From the NCBI RefSeq assembly GCF_020520425.1, contig NC_079491.1, forward strand, positions 4,947,143-5,011,142: a DNA stretch of 64,000 nt, given 5' to 3'. The position numbers were made by a program, and so were the translations under genes. Within the stretch, counting starts at the first letter, position 1. The number at the start of each line of letters is the position of its first letter. Shown one piece after another: positions 3,856 to 40,894 of the stretch. The stretch comes from Spinacia oleracea (Eukaryota; Streptophyta; Magnoliopsida; Caryophyllales; Amaranthaceae). Below the pieces are notes generated by a model. That model did no database searches. It had not been told where the DNA came from and worked only from the letters and a program-made list of their open reading frames with translations.

Positions 3856-5307
3856 CTAAGTGGCTGAAAGCCAAGAAGGAGGCGGCCAAAACAAATCAGA
3901 ATAGCCTGGATATAACCTTATCAGCTTAGCACCATCAGTTTGCCCCATGTAGAATACACCTATCTTAAACTCTCTACTTGCTCTTCTAAAAAATCTCATG
4001 TCAGGACGACTGCTTTGTGTGTAAGAAGGTAAAGAATCTACAGGAAACACAATGCAATTCCCTTTCCACCCTGGACAGTCTCGAGAAGATACAAAGAAGC
4101 AAACATTAGGAGTTACAAACAATATCTTGTTTCCCAAACTTGTGACCTGATCCCATTTATGCTGTTCTTCATTCAGCTTATAAACACAGAAACTGATTTT
4201 CATCTCGGGACTGTATCTAGTAAGTACATATAATTCCCCGCGAAATTCCACCAAACGCTTGTGTCTATCAGAAGCTTGACCAGTTCCAATTGCATCATTA
4301 GTTATCCTACAAATGATTTGCTCATTGTAGGAAATGATATAAACTCTGCCTTTGCGATCAATACCATATACCTGTCCTTTGAAGTTGAGTATATCATCAA
4401 ACTTATAAACAGATCCACAACGCACCAACCAACAAGCCTTATCTGAGTGATTTCCTAGCTCCAATGCAACTAGACTCCCTTTAGTGCCTAAAATAAAAGC
4501 AGTTGTACCAGCAATTGTAGGAGGAGCCTTGTTTGAAAACAGAACCACTTTCTGGACAGAGTGAACACCACAATCAAAAGGGCAATCACTGGATGAAAAT
4601 TCACACCATCTTTCTTCTGCATTTTGAAAATTATACTCTCTGGATATTTCCGTCACATGTAAATCTGATAGGCTTAAAAACTTTGGGAAATTTTCAGGCA
4701 AATCTTTTATAGCTGCTCTTCTAAGAGGTAGCAGTAAGGTGAGCTTGCCTGGATTTAACTCTTCAATTGTAACCAACCAACTTTTTGAAGGAACAAGTGA
4801 TTGGCTACATGGATGGATAAGATAGACAATGCTTGTCACCAGATGAAAAGGACGGATTTTGCTAATAAAATCGGGTAAAGTGTTTGAGATCTTGTAAGGT
4901 AACATGGAACACAGTATACTTGAGTTCAGGGGAAGTGAAAAAGAAGCTCTCCAATTCGTACAGACTGCACGGGATACACAAACATCAGCGCGACTCTCTA
5001 GGTACTTTGCAATTTCAGTTAGCAAGTCTGAGGGAATGTCAGCCCAAGGTACATCTGGTCCTTGAAGTTGTTGGTCAGAAACACCAGTTTCAACAGGCTG
5101 CACAAAACATTGAAAGCTTTTAGGTAGGTAGATCAATCACCTTATTTCTGATGCAAGGAATTAAGATAGGTATGTCCATAAAAAATAGATGCAAGCTAGT
5201 TTTTAGAATTACCTGCTCTATAACATCTAATGCTGAAAAGTTGCTTAAAGAGGATGGGTGTATCTCATTATTGTTGAGATCGAGAGTAATCTCATCCTCC
5301 TCTCCAT
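3856..5307 (-). CDS. F-box/DUF295 (SKIP23-like) protein 1
   Basis: Likely substrate receptor of an SCF ubiquitin ligase; the substrate is unknown. The main exon (3856-5097) has an F-box near its N-terminus (PWADIPSDLLTEIAKYLESR followed by VCTNW). A KIB1-4/DUF295 beta-propeller-like region follows, with the family signatures YKFDDILNFKGQVYGIDRKG, KRLVEFRGELYVL, FCVYKLNEEQHKW and FVSSRDCPGWKGNCIVF, ending WPPPSWLSAT. A phase-0 GT-AG intron (5098-5212) fits: the minus strand has a TTTTGTGCAG acceptor before CCTGTTG and a GTAATT donor at 5212. An upstream exon (about 5213-5307) then reads in frame DGEEDEITLDLNNNEIHPSS...SALDVIEQ. That acidic exon is itself preceded by ATTAG, so a first exon or start remains unplaced. 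An ATG inside the main exon run (5134-5136) is the alternative, giving 426 residues. First of three paralogues in the same orientation. Confidence 0.85.
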
Positions 5308-33966: not shown

Positions 33967-33968
33967 TA

Positions 33969-33995
33969 CTCCCTCCATTCCTTTTTGTTCTTCCC
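33969..33995 (+). repeat. Left terminal inverted repeat of the mariner element
   Basis: CTCCCTCCATTCCTTTTTGT followed by TCTTCCC, directly after the TA duplication. It matches the right end with a single difference. A second copy of the inner motif (CTTTTTGTTCTTCCC) occurs about 35 bp further in at 34,014-34,028, so the left end may carry two transposase contact sites while the right end shows one. Confidence 0.95.
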
Positions 33996-34186
33996 ATTTC
34001 CTTTTTTAGCATTTCTTTTTGTTCTTCCCCTACTGAATCTTTACTATTTTTGGCCATAGTTTTTTTACCAATTTACCCTAAGATTCCCCACTATTTACAA
34101 AAAATACCCTAAGATTCTACCCTTTCCCACCCACTTTTACCCCACCCACCTTATTTAATTAATTAACCTAACCCCACCCCCCTCCC

Positions 34187-34193
34187 TTTATAA
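34187..34193 (+). promoter_or_regulatory. TATA box of the mariner accessory gene
   Basis: TTTATAA followed by a C/T-rich leader with CTCTCTCT runs and the AAACCCTAGG motif common in plant 5' leaders. It lies 330 bp before the ATG at 34,525. Confidence 0.6.
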
Positions 34194-34524
34194 CCCGTCC
34201 CAATCTCACAATCCCTCCCTCACCTCTCATTCTGATTTCTCTCTCTCACCTCTCATTCTGATTTCTCTCTCTCACCTCTTCGGATCTCTCTCTCTCTCTT
34301 ATTTCACTCTCTCTCTCTCTTAAAATTCCTCCCCTGTTCTTGAGAAAACCCTAGGTTTTCCGCCTCTGATCTGGGTTTTCCTCTCCAAATCTCGCAAATC
34401 TGAAACGTTTTCGCCGAAAAACGTTCATAAAAATTACTCGGAATCATTTTCCGATCAGATCCCCTCTATTTTTGTCCCCTTTTTGGTCCCTAATCGTCGC
34501 TGATCTCTGTTTTTCTGGTACTTT

Positions 34525-35814
34525 ATGGGTTCTTCTTTGTCTAGAACTCGAGGTGATTCTGGGGTGGGAACTTCTGGTCAAAGAATCCCCGATTCCAACT
34601 GTGATTGGGGATCCAAGTGCAACTGTCCCAATAACGAGCATTCCTACTCCGCCGAATATAAAAACAATCTGTATTTGGCCCAAAAAGAAAATACGAGTAC
34701 TCGAAACTATTTGGAAGAATGGTTTCGGAAGAGGGAAGTGGAGCCAGGAGAGGAGGTTGAGTCAAAATATGACGATCGGAAACCCACTCCCTCAGATCTG
34801 CGTTTTTTCGGTGAAGGAGATTCCGATGAGGTATTAATTTTGATTTTTTGCGATTTATTTAGGGTTATTGATGTCGGTTTTATTAAAATGGTTTGATGAA
34901 TGTTTGCATGTCTAAAAAAGTGGGATTTGATAAATGTTTGATTTATTTGGAGTATTGTTCATTAAACTCGGATTATTTTCTGGAGTAGTTGCTCTGATTT
35001 CCCATTGCATGTGTTAAAAATGCAGATCTGGTATTATTTCGAATTTTTTGGGAATTTTTTGGAGATTTGTTGGATTCATTCGGGCTTTTTATGTTATTCT
35101 TTGCTCTGTTTTCTCATTGCATGTTGTTAAAATTGAGTTCTGATTTTATTTTGTGCTCTGTTTTTTCATTGCATGTTGTTAAAATTGAATTATGATTTTA
35201 TTTTGTGCTCTGTTTTTTCATTGCATGTTGTTAAAATTGAGTTTTGATTTTATTTTGTGCTCTGTTTTTTCATTGCATGTTGTTAAAATTGAGTTCTGAT
35301 TTTATTTGGAGCTATTTGGAAATTATTTGAAGAAAATCGGAATATTCATGTGTTTTGTTGATCTGTTTTCCCATTGCATGTGGTTAAAAATGGGATCTGG
35401 ATGTATTTGGGATATTATTTCACATTTTTTGGGTAAAAATGGGATCTGGATGTATTCGGAAAATTAGTTGGATTTTAATGGAATTATTGTGTGATTTGCT
35501 TTCATTTATCTCATTGCATGTGGTAACCATGGTGATCTGAAATTATTTGGAACTTTATTTTGAGTTGTTTGATTAAATCTGATTTTAATTCATGGTCCCC
35601 TGTTATTTTATGATGGCACTAATCATGTTGTTTGTCCCCTATTGATTGCAAGGAACCAAGTGGGTCTGATTCATTTGATCTGGTGTATGTTGGAGAGTGT
35701 GAAAATGAGAATGGTGATGCTGTTGGGTCTCCAGGACAACTTTCATCTGGTTATCCCTCCTCAAAGAAAGGAGAAAAGGGAAAAAAATCGGCTTCAGCAT
35801 CTGATGATGCTTAG
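34525..35814 (+). CDS. Mariner accessory gene, unknown 155-residue protein (two exons)
   Basis: Exon 1 (34,525-34,830, 102 codons) begins MGSSLSRTRGDSGVGTSGQR. It includes a C-x5-C-x-C cluster (NCDWGSKCNC), a helical NYLEEWFRKREVEPGEE segment and the acidic end FFGEGDSDE. Exon 2 (35,653-35,814) reads EPSGSDSFDLVYVGECENEN and ends KKGEKGKKSASASDDA. The intron (34,831-35,652) has GAG|GTATTA and ATTGCAAG borders and is phase 0, keeping both frames open. The protein is hydrophilic and no family is recognised. I know of no plant mariner with a second gene like this. An overlapping frame from 34,472 is open for 121 codons but lacks a matching exon 2. The function is unknown. A regulator or transposition helper is only a guess from context. 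Confidence 0.65.
35102..35305 (+). repeat. Four-copy 52-bp tandem repeat in the accessory-gene intron
   Basis: Units starting TGCTCTGTTTTTTCATTGCA begin at 35,102, 35,154, 35,206 and 35,258, differing by only a few bases each. Diverged GCATGTGGTTAAAAATGGGA-like segments continue after them. Confidence 0.93.
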
Positions 35815-36336
35815 ATAAGTCTGTCTCCTTTCTCCCTTTTTTCATTTTATTGAATGCTGGCTAGCTGTGGAGTCATAAGGTGGATGCCAACAACTGTGAT
35901 CTGTTGTTGGCCAGGGGTGTTGTTGTTTGGATGATGATGTTGTGATTAGTTGTATGGATGTTGATGTTAGATATTTTAAGTTATGATATTGATATTGATA
36001 ATGATGATTGGATGATGGTGTTTCCATATGGTTATGAAATTTTGTGGAATGTTGTCTGTGTGATGAACATGATTTGATGGCTTAATGTCCCCTGTTTTAT
36101 GGTATGTTTTGTGTATGATAAATATGATGCTTTGGTGAGTATGAGATTTGATCAGTATAACTATGTTTTGGATTAGTAAAGGCATGAAATGAATATAATT
36201 TGGGGATAGGGTTTGAGTTATTTCAGTCCTCTCAGTGTGGCCTGGTGTTGAATGCTTAATGTCCAAGCATGTCCCTTTAGGATACAATAATGTCCCTTTA
36301 TTTATTGTGATCGATGATGAGTCTTTTTTTTGCTGA

Positions 36337-36430
36337 GGAACAAGTCCAACTAACCACAAATGCTCGTGCTGCCATTAGTATCAGTAATGATATTTCTCGG
36401 GCGCTAAGTGTTTGTGGTTTGGAGTTGTTT
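36337..36430 (+). repeat. Hairpin 1 (family C)
   Basis: The 5' arm includes GTCCAACTAACCACAAATGC and the 3' arm GTGTTTGTGGTTTGGAGTTG. The loop is about four bases between TATCA and TGATA. Stem about 43 bp with several mismatches in the middle. Confidence 0.75.
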
Positions 36431-36529
36431 TAATGATGCTTGGGGACATTCTGAGATCAATATTAGGAGGTTTGTGATCTTCAATGATGTGATTGTTGAT
36501 ATTCTGAGATCTTTGTTTTGATAATTGTC

Positions 36530-36619
36530 CTTTAACTTCTTTTGTCGAACGGAGTGAATGTCATTTCACACAATGGAATGTGAATATCAATCATTCCGTT
36601 CGGCAGAAGAATGTTAAAG
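36530..36619 (+). repeat. Hairpin 2 (family D)
   Basis: The 5' arm CTTCTTTTGTCGAACGGAGT pairs with the 3' arm CATTCCGTTCGGCAGAAGAA, and the outer CTTTAA/TTAAAG ends also pair. About 40-bp stem, eight-base loop, few mismatches. The best microRNA-like candidate with its duplicate, hairpin 4. Confidence 0.82.
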
Positions 36620-36857
36620 ATATGATAGTATTGAAACTACTTGATCAATGATGTGTGTCAATATGTCTGAGAAATGAAACCCTACATGTTAATGATCTGT
36701 TTAATGCTTCATGTCCCATGAATCAGTGGAGGTCTGTGATGAGTCTTTCATTTGATGAGGTTCAAACCCTATGTTTTGATCAGTTCATGGTGATCTGATG
36801 CATTGTTGATTGTTATTGTTATGCTTGATCTGTGATGAGTCTTTCATTTGTTGAGAC

Positions 36858-36943
36858 TCAAACCCAATGTTCCAATAACACTTGTGCACCATTAGCATCA
36901 TTGATGCTCTTCCGGAGCTAAGTGTTAGGGGATAGGGTTTGTG
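36858..36943 (+). repeat. Hairpin 3 (family C)
   Basis: Arms TCAAACCCAATGTTCCAATA and TAAGTGTTAGGGGATAGGGT, with GTGCACCATTAGCATCA facing TGATGCTCTTCCGGAGC. Very small loop. Confidence 0.75.
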
Positions 36944-37087
36944 TCAATGATGTTTGGGGACATTCTGAGATCTTATGTCAGGTTAGACAGGAGAGGCAAT
37001 TCATGTCTTGCAAAACATGTATAATGTATTTCTGATATTCAATGATGTTAGTGTTGATATTCTGAGATCTTTGTTTTGATAATTGTC

Positions 37088-37177
37088 CTTTAACTTCTTT
37101 TGTCGAACGGAGTGAATGTCATTTCACACAATGGAATGTGAATATCAATCATTCCATTCGGCAGAAGAATGTTAAAG
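37088..37177 (+). repeat. Hairpin 4 (family D, duplicate of hairpin 2)
   Basis: Identical to hairpin 2 except that the 3' arm reads CATTCCATTCGGCAG, turning one G-C pair into a mismatch. It lies exactly 558 bp downstream of hairpin 2. Confidence 0.82.
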
Positions 37178-37415
37178 ATATGATAGTATTGAAACTACTT
37201 GATCAATGATGTGTGTCAATATGTCTGAGAAATGAAACCCTACATGTTAATGATCTGTTTAATGCTTCATGTCCCATGAATCAGTGGAGGTCTGTGATGA
37301 GTCTTTCATTTGATGAGGTTCAAACCCTATGCTTTGATTAGTTCATGGTGATCTGATGCATTGTTGATTGTTATTGTTATGCTTGATCTGTGATGAGTCT
37401 TTCATTTGCTGAGAC

Positions 37416-37500
37416 TCAAACCCAATGTTCCAATAACACTTGTGTACCATTAGCATCATTGATGCTCTTCCGGAGCTAAGTGTTAGGGGATAGGGTTTGT
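37416..37500 (+). repeat. Hairpin 5 (family C, duplicate of hairpin 3)
   Basis: Near-identical to hairpin 3, 558 bp downstream, with GTGTACC replacing GTGCACC in the 5' arm. Confidence 0.75.
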
Positions 37501-37652
37501 GTCAATGATGCTTGGGGACATTCTGAGATCTTATGTCAGGTTAGACAGGAGAGGCAATTCATGTATTGCAAAACATGTATAATGTGTTTCTGATATTCAA
37601 TGATGTTAGTGTTTCTGATCTGTGATGTATGTGTTGATAACCTGAGATATTT

Positions 37653-37771
37653 GATTCTAAACATGTCCCTCACCACCAATCACCAAAGGGAATACAGATC
37701 ATGTCACATCATTGATTGATCTAGTATCCCCTTTGGTGAATTGGTGGTGAGGTTGTAAATCATTTAGAAAC
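37653..37771 (+). repeat. Hairpin 6 (family E)
   Basis: The 5' arm CCTCACCACCAATCACCAAA pairs with the 3' arm TTTGGTGAATTGGTGGTGAG with one bulged base. The inner AGATCA/TGATCT and the outer TTCTAAA/TTTAGAA also pair. Longest stem of the array. Confidence 0.82.
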
Positions 37772-37870
37772 AAATCTGTCAATGATGTAAAACAACTTAA
37801 CTGAGAGTCAATGATGTTGCCTTGTTCATTGCTTCCTTGTTTTTGCTGCTTTGTTCTTGTTTCCTTACCA

Positions 37871-37974
37871 TTACATCTTTTGGCACATCGGCATCCAATG
37901 GGGAAGAATTTCCATCTGAAAATGATGTGATATGCATTCTTTCCATTTGGATGCCGATGTGCTTAGAGATGTGA
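37871..37974 (+). repeat. Hairpin 7 (family F)
   Basis: The 5' arm GCACATCGGCATCCAATGGG pairs with the 3' arm CCATTTGGATGCCGATGTGC, flanked by further pairing (TTACATC with GATGTGA). The loop of about 20 bases holds CATCTGAAAATGATG, itself partly self-complementary. Confidence 0.82.
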
Positions 37975-38034
37975 TGTGAAGAAGTTTTTGTACTTATGCC
38001 TTGTGATCTGTGATGAGTCTTCATTTTATGAGTG

Positions 38035-38121
38035 TCAAACCCTTTGTTTTTCAATCAAACTCATGCACCATTAGCATCCATGATGTTTTTCAGGAGCTAA
38101 GTTTAATTGGAAAGGGTTTGA
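38035..38121 (+). repeat. Hairpin 8 (family C)
   Basis: Outer arms TCAAACCCTTTG and AAAGGGTTTGA, inner GCACCATTAGCATC facing GATGTTTTTCAGGAGC. Diverged from hairpins 3 and 5 but with the same plan. Confidence 0.75.
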
Positions 38122-38220
38122 TTCAATGATTTTTGGGGACATTCTGAGATATTTATGAATCTTTGTTTATGTGAGGCATATTCCATGTGTTATCAATGAT
38201 GAATTGATTGTTTTTGTCAA

Positions 38221-38333
38221 AATTACATCTTTTGACGCATCGGTTTCAAAATGGGAATAATTTCCATCTGAAAATGATGTGATATTATTATTTATTTCCA
38301 TTTTGAAGCCGATGTGTTTAGAGTTGTGATATT
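38221..38333 (+). repeat. Hairpin 9 (family F)
   Basis: The 5' arm ACGCATCGGTTTCAAAATGG pairs with the 3' arm CCATTTTGAAGCCGATGTGT. The loop has the same CATCTGAAAATGATG phrase as hairpin 7, showing descent from a common hairpin. Compensating changes (GGCATCC to GGTTTC/GAAGCC) largely keep the stem. Confidence 0.82.
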
Positions 38334-38700
38334 GCAAATGCTGCCTTGTTCTTAAGAACCCAATGCTGCCTTGTTTATAGTGTTGCCAATGCTGCCTTAC
38401 CTCTTGTGCCTTGTACTTTTTCTGCCAATGCTGCCTTGTTCTTGTTATGTACTCATTTGATGTTTATTGCCTTGCCTTGATTACTCTACATTGATGTGAA
38501 TAAGAATGATGGAAAAAAACTTTACTAAACTTAAACATGAGATTCATTCATTGATGCTTCCAAAAGATATGCTTACAAAATGTTTTGCCTACATGTTATG
38601 CTTGCATTTAAGCTTACAAAAGTGACACATTGGTTTTACTTGTCAATTTAAAAACATGTCCCCAAAACACAAAAAGTTATCTAATTGTTTTCACCTTGCT

Positions 38701-40347
38701 TCACTGGTTTGCTTTCCATTCATCATAGAGTTGCATGCATTCATTAACTGCCCATATAGGTGCCTTGACTTGCTCTGGCAGTCTGCCTTCATCTTCTAAA
38801 ATCTTCTTCTTGTTGTGTGGAAGTTGGTAATCATTGTTGCCTTTGTGTTTTAGAATCTCATTAGAAACAAACTGTAATGTCATCCACACATTAGACAATG
38901 TCTTAGGATGCAACTCATTAAAAGAATCATACACTGCTCCACTTAAGTCCTCCACAGTTTTAGGCATTTTCTTGTGCATAAGTGATTGTATTGACCTGAA
39001 AAATCCCAAGTCCAAGATGTTGCAATCTGGACTGTTTGCTGGCTGTTGAGTCAACACAAAAGTGAACCCATCTTGTTTGTAGTGTAGTTGCCATTCAGGA
39101 TCATTTTGCAATATATGTGCCTTTGCATTATCTTGAATGATATAGATGACCTTTTCCCCTTCATGTGGTGGCCACTTTGCCTTGATTGCTGGAATTAGCA
39201 AGTTGATCATCATTGCCCTTGTTTCAATTTGATTCACAGACTTCACTGGCTTTGTTTCAATGGTCCCCTTTACTCTGTTTTTTGATGTCCTCTTGGCTGC
39301 AACTGCATTTGTGAATGGAAATATGCCTATTTTACCATCAAATTCACAATTCCCATTTTCACCCCACCTTGGTCTGGCTACTGCTGCCATGAACATGAAT
39401 TTTGGTATCTTGGTTCTTGAACTTGCACTTCTATGTGGATAGGGTTCATTGTTTGCAAGATAAACTCTCTGGTTTTTTTGAGTCAAATAAAACCACTTCT
39501 CATCAATATGAATGAAGTCATACATGCTGTAATATGTTGGTTCCTGTGGTATAGTGTAATCCATTATTAGTCTGAGTACCCACCTCATCCTTGCCATTTT
39601 GCATGCATCTGAAATGCCTGGATGCAAGGGACTTGAGTGTGGCTTAATAATTTTCCTCTTGATGAGCCTCCATACTGTTGTTGGTCCCAAATTGAGCATT
39701 CTTGCAAGATCTACAATGCATGTTCTGTCCCCCATGGCTATTTGTGCAATAGAGTCATATGTGACTTGAACCTTTTTCCTGCCACACTTGTGATACTTAC
39801 TTTCCACCACATATGAATTCATTGCTGCCTTCTGCTTCTTTGCTTTGTCCCATATTGACCCTATGGTTTTTCTGTTGTAATCAAATTCTATGGCTGCATC
39901 CCTTATTGTCCCAAACAAAAGAGTTTCTGAATCTGGAATTTTTCTATTCAGCAGGTACACCAAAATTTCAAGCCTCAATTCATTATTTATTCTAGGAGTC
40001 CTAGGCTTATGATGATCTGTTCTGGGTGTTGCTGTTTGATGATGAATTGGTGATGCATTTTCTGATGGTGGTGGAAAGTTCAAATCAAAAAGAAATGGTA
40101 CCTCTTGAAAGTTGGTAGTTTGCTGGTGCCCTTCCCCTTCTACTTCTGGTACTTGCTGTACATATTCAGTGCTGTTTGGTACATCTTCATTAAACCCAAT
40201 GTCCCCAAAATCAGCAGCAGTATTTTGAGAAGCTTGTACCAAGTCAGCAGCATCATCACCTACCTCTGAGTCAGAATCGGAGTTAATGCCATCGCCTTCA
40301 TCATCAGAAAATCCGAGGAAATCGTCATCCTCTTGATCTGAAGCCAT
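38701..40347 (-). CDS. Mariner-like transposase (DD39D)
   Basis: 548-residue intact transposase that would cut and paste the element at TA sites. Residues 1-60 are strongly acidic (EDDDFLGFSDDEGDG). A helix-turn-helix DNA-binding region follows (about 115-245: RINNELRLEILVYLLNRKIP, FDYNRKTIGSIWDKAKK, ARMLNLGPTTVWRLIKRKII). The catalytic triad is visible: first D in FIHIDEKWFY, second in YIIQDNAKAH, third in CNILDLGFF, with 39 residues between the second and third, the DD39D spacing of plant mariners. The single exon has no interruption, and the length is near the plant family norm. Start MASDQEDDDF; the TATA box lies 120 bp upstream. It is convergent with the accessory gene. Confidence 0.96.
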   Translation of the reverse strand: MASDQEDDDFLGFSDDEGDGINSDSDSEVGDDAADLVQASQNTAADFGDIGFNEDVPNSTEYVQQVPEVEGEGHQQTTNFQEVPFLFDLNFPPPSENASPIHHQTATPRTDHHKPRTPRINNELRLEILVYLLNRKIPDSETLLFGTIRDAAIEFDYNRKTIGSIWDKAKKQKAAMNSYVVESKYHKCGRKKVQVTYDSIAQIAMGDRTCIVDLARMLNLGPTTVWRLIKRKIIKPHSSPLHPGISDACKMARMRWVLRLIMDYTIPQEPTYYSMYDFIHIDEKWFYLTQKNQRVYLANNEPYPHRSASSRTKIPKFMFMAAVARPRWGENGNCEFDGKIGIFPFTNAVAAKRTSKNRVKGTIETKPVKSVNQIETRAMMINLLIPAIKAKWPPHEGEKVIYIIQDNAKAHILQNDPEWQLHYKQDGFTFVLTQQPANSPDCNILDLGFFRSIQSLMHKKMPKTVEDLSGAVYDSFNELHPKTLSNVWMTLQFVSNEILKHKGNNDYQLPHNKKKILEDEGRLPEQVKAPIWAVNECMQLYDEWKANQ

Positions 40348-40466
40348 TAAGTCCCCTGTTTTTTTGCTATTTAATGCTGAATTGAGGAAGAAATTTTGGT
40401 GTTTTGCTTGTATTTATTGAACTTGGTAAAAGTCAGATTTTGGTCTTTTGTGGGGGGAAAGTGACC

Positions 40467-40475
40467 CTATTTATA
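40467..40475 (-). promoter_or_regulatory. TATA box of the transposase gene
   Basis: The minus strand reads TATAAATAG, the textbook plant TATA form, 120 bp before the transposase ATG and about 420 bp inside the right end. Confidence 0.75.
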
Positions 40476-40867
40476 AAGGGAATTCACTATGTCAACCCCT
40501 CAAAAATTTGGAGGGAAATTAAAAATCCCCTGTTTTTTTATTTGGGGGGAAAATTTGGAGGGAAAACTGAAATCAATTGTTTGGGCTTAATTTCCAGCCA
40601 AAAAAAACGTGAGTCATTGTATGATTAAATCTGATTGGTCCATGTAACAGCTGATGGGTCCCATACCCCATGTGACTGAATTTTTTTGCTGATTTCTTTC
40701 ATTACTTTAATAAAATATCTACTTTTCTCCCTATTAATTAAATACTTTCTCTCTCTTTACTTTATTCAATTTCTTACACCCAATCATTATTCTTACACCC
40801 AATCATTACTCATATCCCAATACAAACCAAGATTCAGTTTTCTTAAACCACACCCAACATTCTTTAG

Positions 40868-40894
40868 GGGAAGAACAAAAGGGAATGGAGGGAG
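40868..40894 (-). repeat. Right terminal inverted repeat of the mariner element
   Basis: On the minus strand CTCCCTCCATTCCCTTTTGT then TCTTCCC, directly next to TA at 40,895. One difference from the left end. Confidence 0.95.

Follow-up and report, generated by a model that had tools for sequence, protein, structure and literature searches.

DNA transposons are usually viewed as a pair of ends plus a transposase. Some plant transposons carry RNA elements as well: the ENE of the Evade retrotransposon engages the poly(A) tail in a triple helix and has been shown to protect RNA (as outlined in PMC12501189), and rice miR820, which lies in CACTA transposons, targets OsDRM2 (as summarised in PMC3459959). 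RNA units bearing C and D boxes occur in tandem in plant polycistronic snoRNA and sno-miRNA genes (outlined in PMC4660826) and in the TIGR-Tas arrays of prokaryotes and their viruses, which are associated with Nop-domain proteins (as introduced in PMC12045711).

The locus described here lies in a window of 64,000 nucleotides of Spinacia oleracea DNA (the whole stretch that was analysed) and comprises an array of nine hairpins inside a mariner-like element, MLE1. The array is best described, from modelled folds and sequence comparison, as a box C/D-type structured RNA that has been conserved, predicted to be read from the + strand, sense to a neighbouring gene, gene A. Like box C/D snoRNAs, and like the plant genes as PMC4660826 outlines them, it has the order C, D', C', D and a terminal stem; with the plant genes it also shares tandem units on one strand and hairpins nearby on that strand. 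It differs from box C/D snoRNAs in its long D'-C' hairpin, its mutually paired spacers and its DNA-transposon carrier, and from plant snoRNA genes in promoter and family matches: the Site II promoter motif was absent from 4/4 upstream regions, two of which belong to a single family, every Rfam match for MLE1 and three relatives (L033–L035) fell short of gathering, and no Rfam snoRNA family matched the array at E up to 1. The sequence AAACCCTA was present in the window element and, as its reverse complement, in L033 and L034, with neither form in L035.

With miR820 precursors, as summarised in PMC3459959, the array has in common a hairpin RNA inside a DNA transposon, but it is multi-unit, bears boxes and has no known target. 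The ENE of PMC12501189 is likewise a structured RNA in a plant transposon, although RNA protection is only proposed here, and the array differs from it in having kink-turn-like boxes and repeated rods. The TIGR-Tas arrays, as PMC12045711 introduces them, similarly place tandem C/D-box RNA units beside a protein gene in mobile DNA; the likeness is one of analogy only, and the unit pattern was found in none of the viral and prokaryote contigs searched, as expected for a plant element. Among the literature titles and abstract openings covered, none described such an array, a statement that extends to those titles and openings and no wider.

Nine hairpins in four families

The nine foldbacks reported in a preliminary description of this DNA are real. 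Taken at the best 110-nt window of a sliding scan, each was more stable than 100/100 dinucleotide shuffles (z −3.94 to −12.45), and both the family order C-D-C-D-C-E-F-C-F and the duplication of a 558-bp module were confirmed. RNA of the + strand folded better for 7/9 hairpins, the − strand being slightly better for hairpins 6 and 8. The two F hairpins are as follows.

37862..37985, + strand: hairpin 7F, with D'/C'-like CTGAAAATGATGT in the apical loop and no outer C/D pair seen
38212..38340, + strand: hairpin 9F, partner of 7F with compensatory changes

These two were said to have diverged while keeping their pairing, and the alignment agrees: 21/112 aligned bases differ, and of the 41 pairs that the two hairpins share, 4 carry substitutions in both partners, 2 in a single partner and 35 in neither. 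In both, D'/C'-like letters occur in the apical loop only and the outer boxes are absent.

Hairpins 1–6 and 8 form the D'-C' arm of box C/D-like units

The other seven of the nine hairpins lie within longer units, all on the + strand.

36309..36458, + strand: unit 1C, type a; GATC stem, C, D', hairpin 1, C', D
36480..36673, + strand: unit 2D, around hairpin 2
36827..36972, + strand: unit 3C, type b; D' is TTGA
37038..37231, + strand: unit 4D, 558-bp duplicate of 2D
37385..37530, + strand: unit 5C, duplicate of 3C
37617..37809, + strand: unit 6E, around hairpin 6
38005..38151, + strand: unit 8C, type b; D' is ATGA and C' is ATGATT

The C, D and E hairpins are each enclosed in the order C, D', hairpin, C', D. 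The closing stem of the hairpin begins right after D' and stops one base short of C', and the terminal stem (GATC/GATC in C units) is placed likewise against boxes C and D, a spacing which we take to be that of the kink-turns of box C/D snoRNAs. Predicted folds join the two spacers of one unit in a helix, GTCTTT against GGGGAC in one example, so that sequence left free as a guide in a canonical snoRNA is here partly taken up by pairing.

These motifs were concentrated in the array and on one strand. The + strand of the array contains 8 occurrences of ATGATG-(8–18)-CTGAGA, compared with 0.02 per shuffle (maximum 2 in 500 shuffles); its − strand and both strands of the window outside 36,001–38,700 contain 0. 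A looser motif pair occurred 10 times on the + strand of the array (0.66 per shuffle, maximum 4) and 2 and 1 times on the two strands elsewhere in the window. A strict scan for C..D'-stem-N-C'..D, devised after the C, D and E units had been seen, recovered 1C, 2D, 4D, 5C and 6E, from three stem families, plus one overlapping variant, against a mean of 0.004 in shuffles (maximum 1 in 1000); it returned 0 on the − strand, elsewhere in the element and in the rest of the window. Box C/D snoRNA geometry is thus present at five units, while 3C and 8C were missed because their D' is changed (in 8C the C' is altered too).

The array is carried by a mariner element with two convergent genes

33,969–40,894 (no strand assigned): MLE1, mariner-like element with CTCCCTCC...GGAGGGAG ends and TA on either side
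34525..34830, + strand: gene A exon 1, encoding a small Cys/His-rich protein with an HSYSxE motif
35653..35814, + strand: gene A exon 2, containing the stop codon; splice sites assigned by eye
38701..40353, − strand: intact DD39D-type transposase gene; catalytic residues from the translation, spacing counted by eye

The element consists of two convergent genes, gene A on the + strand and the transposase on the − strand, with the array between them. Its TA-flanked CTCCCTCC-type terminal inverted repeats and its intact DD39D-type transposase bear out the mariner context first proposed for the hairpins. Mariner/Stowaway-type ends with TA at both ends were found at 17/20 MLE1 loci, with differing flanks; the search pattern itself demanded the TA, and the remaining 3/20 loci were cut or truncated. 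The transposase matched Pfam DUF7769 below cut-off only and matched no PDB sequence. The genome measures 894 Mb, with six large contigs of 115–189 Mb; in the 79 places scored out of 694 candidates the transposase was encoded at 94–100% identity, 70/79 being without an internal stop.

Gene A comprises two exons and 155 codons, with the splice sites set by eye. Its protein gave nothing above Pfam cut-off and no PDB match. Homologs of gene A also lie upstream of the array in two related families, MLE2 and MLE3 (see below), and share the pattern C-x4-C-x5-C-x3-H-SYS, of which the MLE1 protein lacks the first Cys; from this spacing alone, a zinc-binding, RNA-binding domain would be a guess. The intron of gene A is full of 52-bp and related T-rich tandem repeats at 34997–35600.

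C units were present at 20/20 MLE1 loci (four at 13 loci, three at 7), a count that holds partly by construction because the loci, among them the window's own copy (L009), had been picked via an array search. Further MLE1 copies chosen by their transposase also carried units in 4/4 cases (three, three, three and four), so that the array belongs to the element, as a comparison of other copies had been expected to decide. The gap in three-unit loci was 2288–2314 bp (6 of the 7 measured), as against 2865–2872 bp with four units, consistent with a single copy of the 558-bp module in the three-unit loci. A search with the left end gave 40 places, of which two new ones were inspected; one copy had an internal deletion and had kept two strong units, and the other was L044, a palindromic derivative lacking the array (see below).

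Units are conserved between mariner families

PF24964 led to further mariner families in the same genome. Their transposases are distant from that of MLE1, with 49% identity for MLE2 (L029) and 45% for MLE3 (L032), and only 47% and 40% of fourfold sites, respectively, equal to those of the MLE1 gene; MLE1–MLE2 transposase nucleotide identity is 58.7%. Both families nevertheless carry similar cassettes on the same strand, between left end and transposase. Homologous units were found in MLE2 (L033, L034, L037 and L040) and MLE3 (L035 and L041), antisense to the transposase at 6/6 loci, and the box motifs were one-stranded in L033, L034 and L035. Among 8 further PF24964 regions, units occurred in L037, L040 and L041, and none in L036, L038, L039, L042 or L043. 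L042 is related to MLE2, and a short unit of it lies just beyond the region examined. The other four unit-free regions showed neither units nor similarity to the MLE1–MLE3 elements and may be other families or fragments; since L036 adjoins a transposase (L031, 39% identical), some mariner lineages may lack the array.

MLE1 and MLE2 units were 78.6–81.1% identical for type a and 80.1–85.6% for type b. In a blastn comparison of MLE1 with one MLE2 copy, C units matched at up to 83% over their full length, and the matches began or stopped within about 15 bases of the GATC stems, apart from 38,002–38,201, which matched about 50 bases longer. The other matches were the transposase (66%), part of its downstream flank (75%) and three short stretches further left (72–73%). 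We also weighed transfer of an entire array between families as a source of this similarity; the patchy alignment, mostly within units, speaks against it, and for MLE1 and MLE2 the pattern favours purifying selection on the units. At a blastn E of 1e-3 the MLE3 array gave no alignment to MLE1, the transposase alone matching, and the MLE3 units were recovered by motif and covariance model only.

Of 21 long units scored with the model, 14 were aligned together, and the alignments by type used 6 rows for type b and 5 for type a, with the L037 units, two from L040, two from L041 and all 123–124-nt and 85-nt units left out. Invariant across the 14 were TG-TGA (C), TGAT (C'), TGGGGACA and CTGAGAT (D).

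This distribution of conservation bears on the preliminary interpretation of the hairpins as microRNA precursors, and on the wider idea that Dicer cuts them into microRNAs or siRNAs acting on the host or on other elements, on the model of rice miR820 in CACTA elements. Several features of the hairpins suit such a role. In hairpins 2, 4, 6, 7 and 9 the best 21-nt duplex leaves 0–1 bases unpaired in each arm, so they would pass a plant-miRNA rule as far as structure goes; their z scores are −7.6 to −12.5, and hairpins 7 and 9 have the 4 compensatory pairs. Rfam matched hairpin 9 to MIR6288 (E 7.9e-5) and MIR5649 (E 9.4e-5), at 37–38 bits against gathering scores of 74 and 100, that is, about half or less. 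Precedents are a transposon-borne miRNA (as summarised in PMC3459959) and plant genes combining snoRNA and miRNA (as outlined in PMC4660826). However, conservation between families spans the boxes and spacers of C units rather than miRNA-sized arms, the invariant blocks being the boxes and the box D spacer; the C hairpins form poorer duplexes, with 2–5 unpaired bases in one arm; and the D, E and F hairpins gave no alignment to the one MLE2 copy used. Because the whole C unit is conserved and 7/9 hairpins lie inside box units, microRNA production is not our main reading and, as an account of the array, is unlikely. On their duplex structure, hairpins 2, 4, 6, 7 and 9 may still be small-RNA precursors.

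The same invariant blocks raise the prospect that the units are guide snoRNAs that would target 2'-O-methylation to rRNA or snRNA of the host, or to RNA from the element itself, acting through the TGGGGACA spacer upstream of box D. That spacer does not vary across the 14 aligned units, and MLE2 has in addition a unit of 85 nt, a usual length for a snoRNA (see below). Potential targets within the element are in excess, GTCCC on the + strand numbering 12 vs 3.6 in shuffles for MLE1, 12 vs 2.4 for MLE2 and 12 vs 1.7 for MLE3, where one element was counted per family (33967–38345 on the + strand, L033 and L035) and five of the MLE3 motifs fall in a coding repeat. On the other hand, both spacers pair with each other in the folds, and complementary stretches within the element are mostly short; we regard guide function as quite unlikely. 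The GTCCC excess is about 3–7 fold, with GGGAC on the + strand found mainly inside units, and GTCCC, being complementary to the conserved GGGGAC, may pair with it within the element's own RNA.

The 85-nt unit stands at the head of the MLE2 array (L033, L034, L037 and L040), lacks a long hairpin, is of the size of an ordinary C/D snoRNA and was full length in 14/24 matching places. On the − strand of L034, 42-bp tandem repeats with AAATGTCCC were seen by eye at about 1940–1790, just before the first short unit. MLE2 also has a hairpin type of its own, TGCCAGT...ACTGGCA, seen by eye between C units of L033 (about 3965–4025, 4310–4370 and 4655–4715) and not seen in MLE1.

Partial covariation in type b units

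In the six type b rows, 96.8% of cells pair, compared with at most 48.6% once partners were slid. Double-change cells numbered 9 vs 3.2 in shuffles, and the covariation score was 0.132 vs 0.062, values that 0/500 shuffles reached in either case; one pair occurs as UA, CG and AU. Weaker measures gave 4 pairs with a double change vs 2.4 (21/500 shuffles reached this) and 10 pair types vs 8.2 (47/500). These figures are to be read with the caveat that related rows can beat shuffles without structure. The five type a rows showed 1 double change, reached by 99/500 shuffles, and for that reason are neutral on structure, speaking neither for nor against it. RNAalifold on all 14 units gave a weak consensus (−2.36 kcal/mol) in which 6 of the 14 pairs carry double changes. 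The proposal that selection acts on the fold thus finds some sign in hairpins 7 and 9 and in type b covariation, and hardly any in type a.

A covariance model was built from the six type b units of MLE1 and MLE2, with no MLE3 sequence. Five MLE3 units were among its matches, the best four having E values of 4e-6 to 3.5e-4 and the fifth 0.02, and it recovered the type a units at E below 1e-15. Among the 85-nt units, it found those in L037 and L040 at E 2e-4 and that in L033 at 0.02, and it did not find that of L034. Across the window, at E up to 1, its matches were confined to the array. Half C units were seen by eye near 36,730–36,810 and 37,290–37,370, the first matching the model at E 0.67.

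Might the units simply be neutral remnants, palindromes and nested insertions in decay? Type a covariation is slight, and among young MLE1 copies the units are not clearly less variable than their surroundings, with 36/1397 variable sites in units vs 44/1473 in the remainder (19 distinct, nearly identical copies in 20 rows, the window being present twice). We read this lack of lower unit variability as reflecting the youth of the burst and record it as a negative result. Yet units are 79–86% identical between MLE1 and MLE2 while fourfold transposase sites agree at 47%, and most sequence between units does not align between these families; decay of neutral remnants is highly improbable.

Proposed function of the array

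That distantly related elements keep similar units suggests, on comparative grounds, that the transposon produces its own structured RNA. This reading rests on predicted fold, box geometry, cross-family conservation and partial covariation. Each unit would form a rod in which a GATC-type terminal stem leads to a kink-turn of boxes C and D, then to a short spacer-spacer helix, a second kink-turn (D'/C') and a long hairpin whose sequence is family-specific. The array might be transcribed as part of the gene A transcript, or its RNA cut from that transcript, and the unit RNA could be bound by host kink-turn proteins of SNU13/15.5K type or by the gene A protein. The resulting RNP would protect the transposon RNA or hold it in the nucleus, to the presumed benefit of the element. 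An RNP serving RNA stability or nuclear retention is our best guess at function, favoured by analogy with the ENE of Evade (as outlined in PMC12501189). Taken together, a transposon-encoded structured RNA of tandem box C/D-like units and this RNP role make a proposal whose chances we judge to be even.

A wider proposal is offered more tentatively, as one that we think somewhat more apt to fail than to hold: that plant mariners carry an undescribed RNA family of tandem double kink-turn rods, in which exchangeable hairpins are set on a shared box C/D framework, and a gene for a Cys/His-rich protein, which jointly form an RNP that borrows or replaces host snoRNP proteins and keeps the RNA stable and unsilenced. 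If true, an RNA kept better than the transposase sequence would mean that plant mariners depend on RNA function, and transposon survival could be tied to the nucleolar RNA machinery. The covariance model offers a concrete handle for seeking this family of units in other plants.

The position of the array admits a different role, as a DNA or 3'-end device: a barrier or terminator between convergent genes, or a region bound by the transposase. In MLE1 the array does sit between convergent genes, and in MLE2 and MLE3 between the gene A homolog and the transposase. Against such a device, the box motifs are one-stranded, the double changes of type b units keep pairing, and one MLE1 derivative without the array (L044) is bounded by two TA-flanked left ends. 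Its form suggests that the array may not be needed in cis for movement, transposition of L044 being presumed. We consider a DNA or 3'-end device very unlikely and prefer the structured RNA.

L044 (L044:84-4080, at C5:19464700-19468900) is itself a palindromic MLE1 derivative, consisting of two left halves head to head with the left ends outermost and flanked by TA. The halves include gene A and are about 95% identical to the window. Mu killer, a long inverted repeat, makes dsRNA against MuDR; by analogy, the long inverted repeat of L044 could give rise to dsRNA against gene A.
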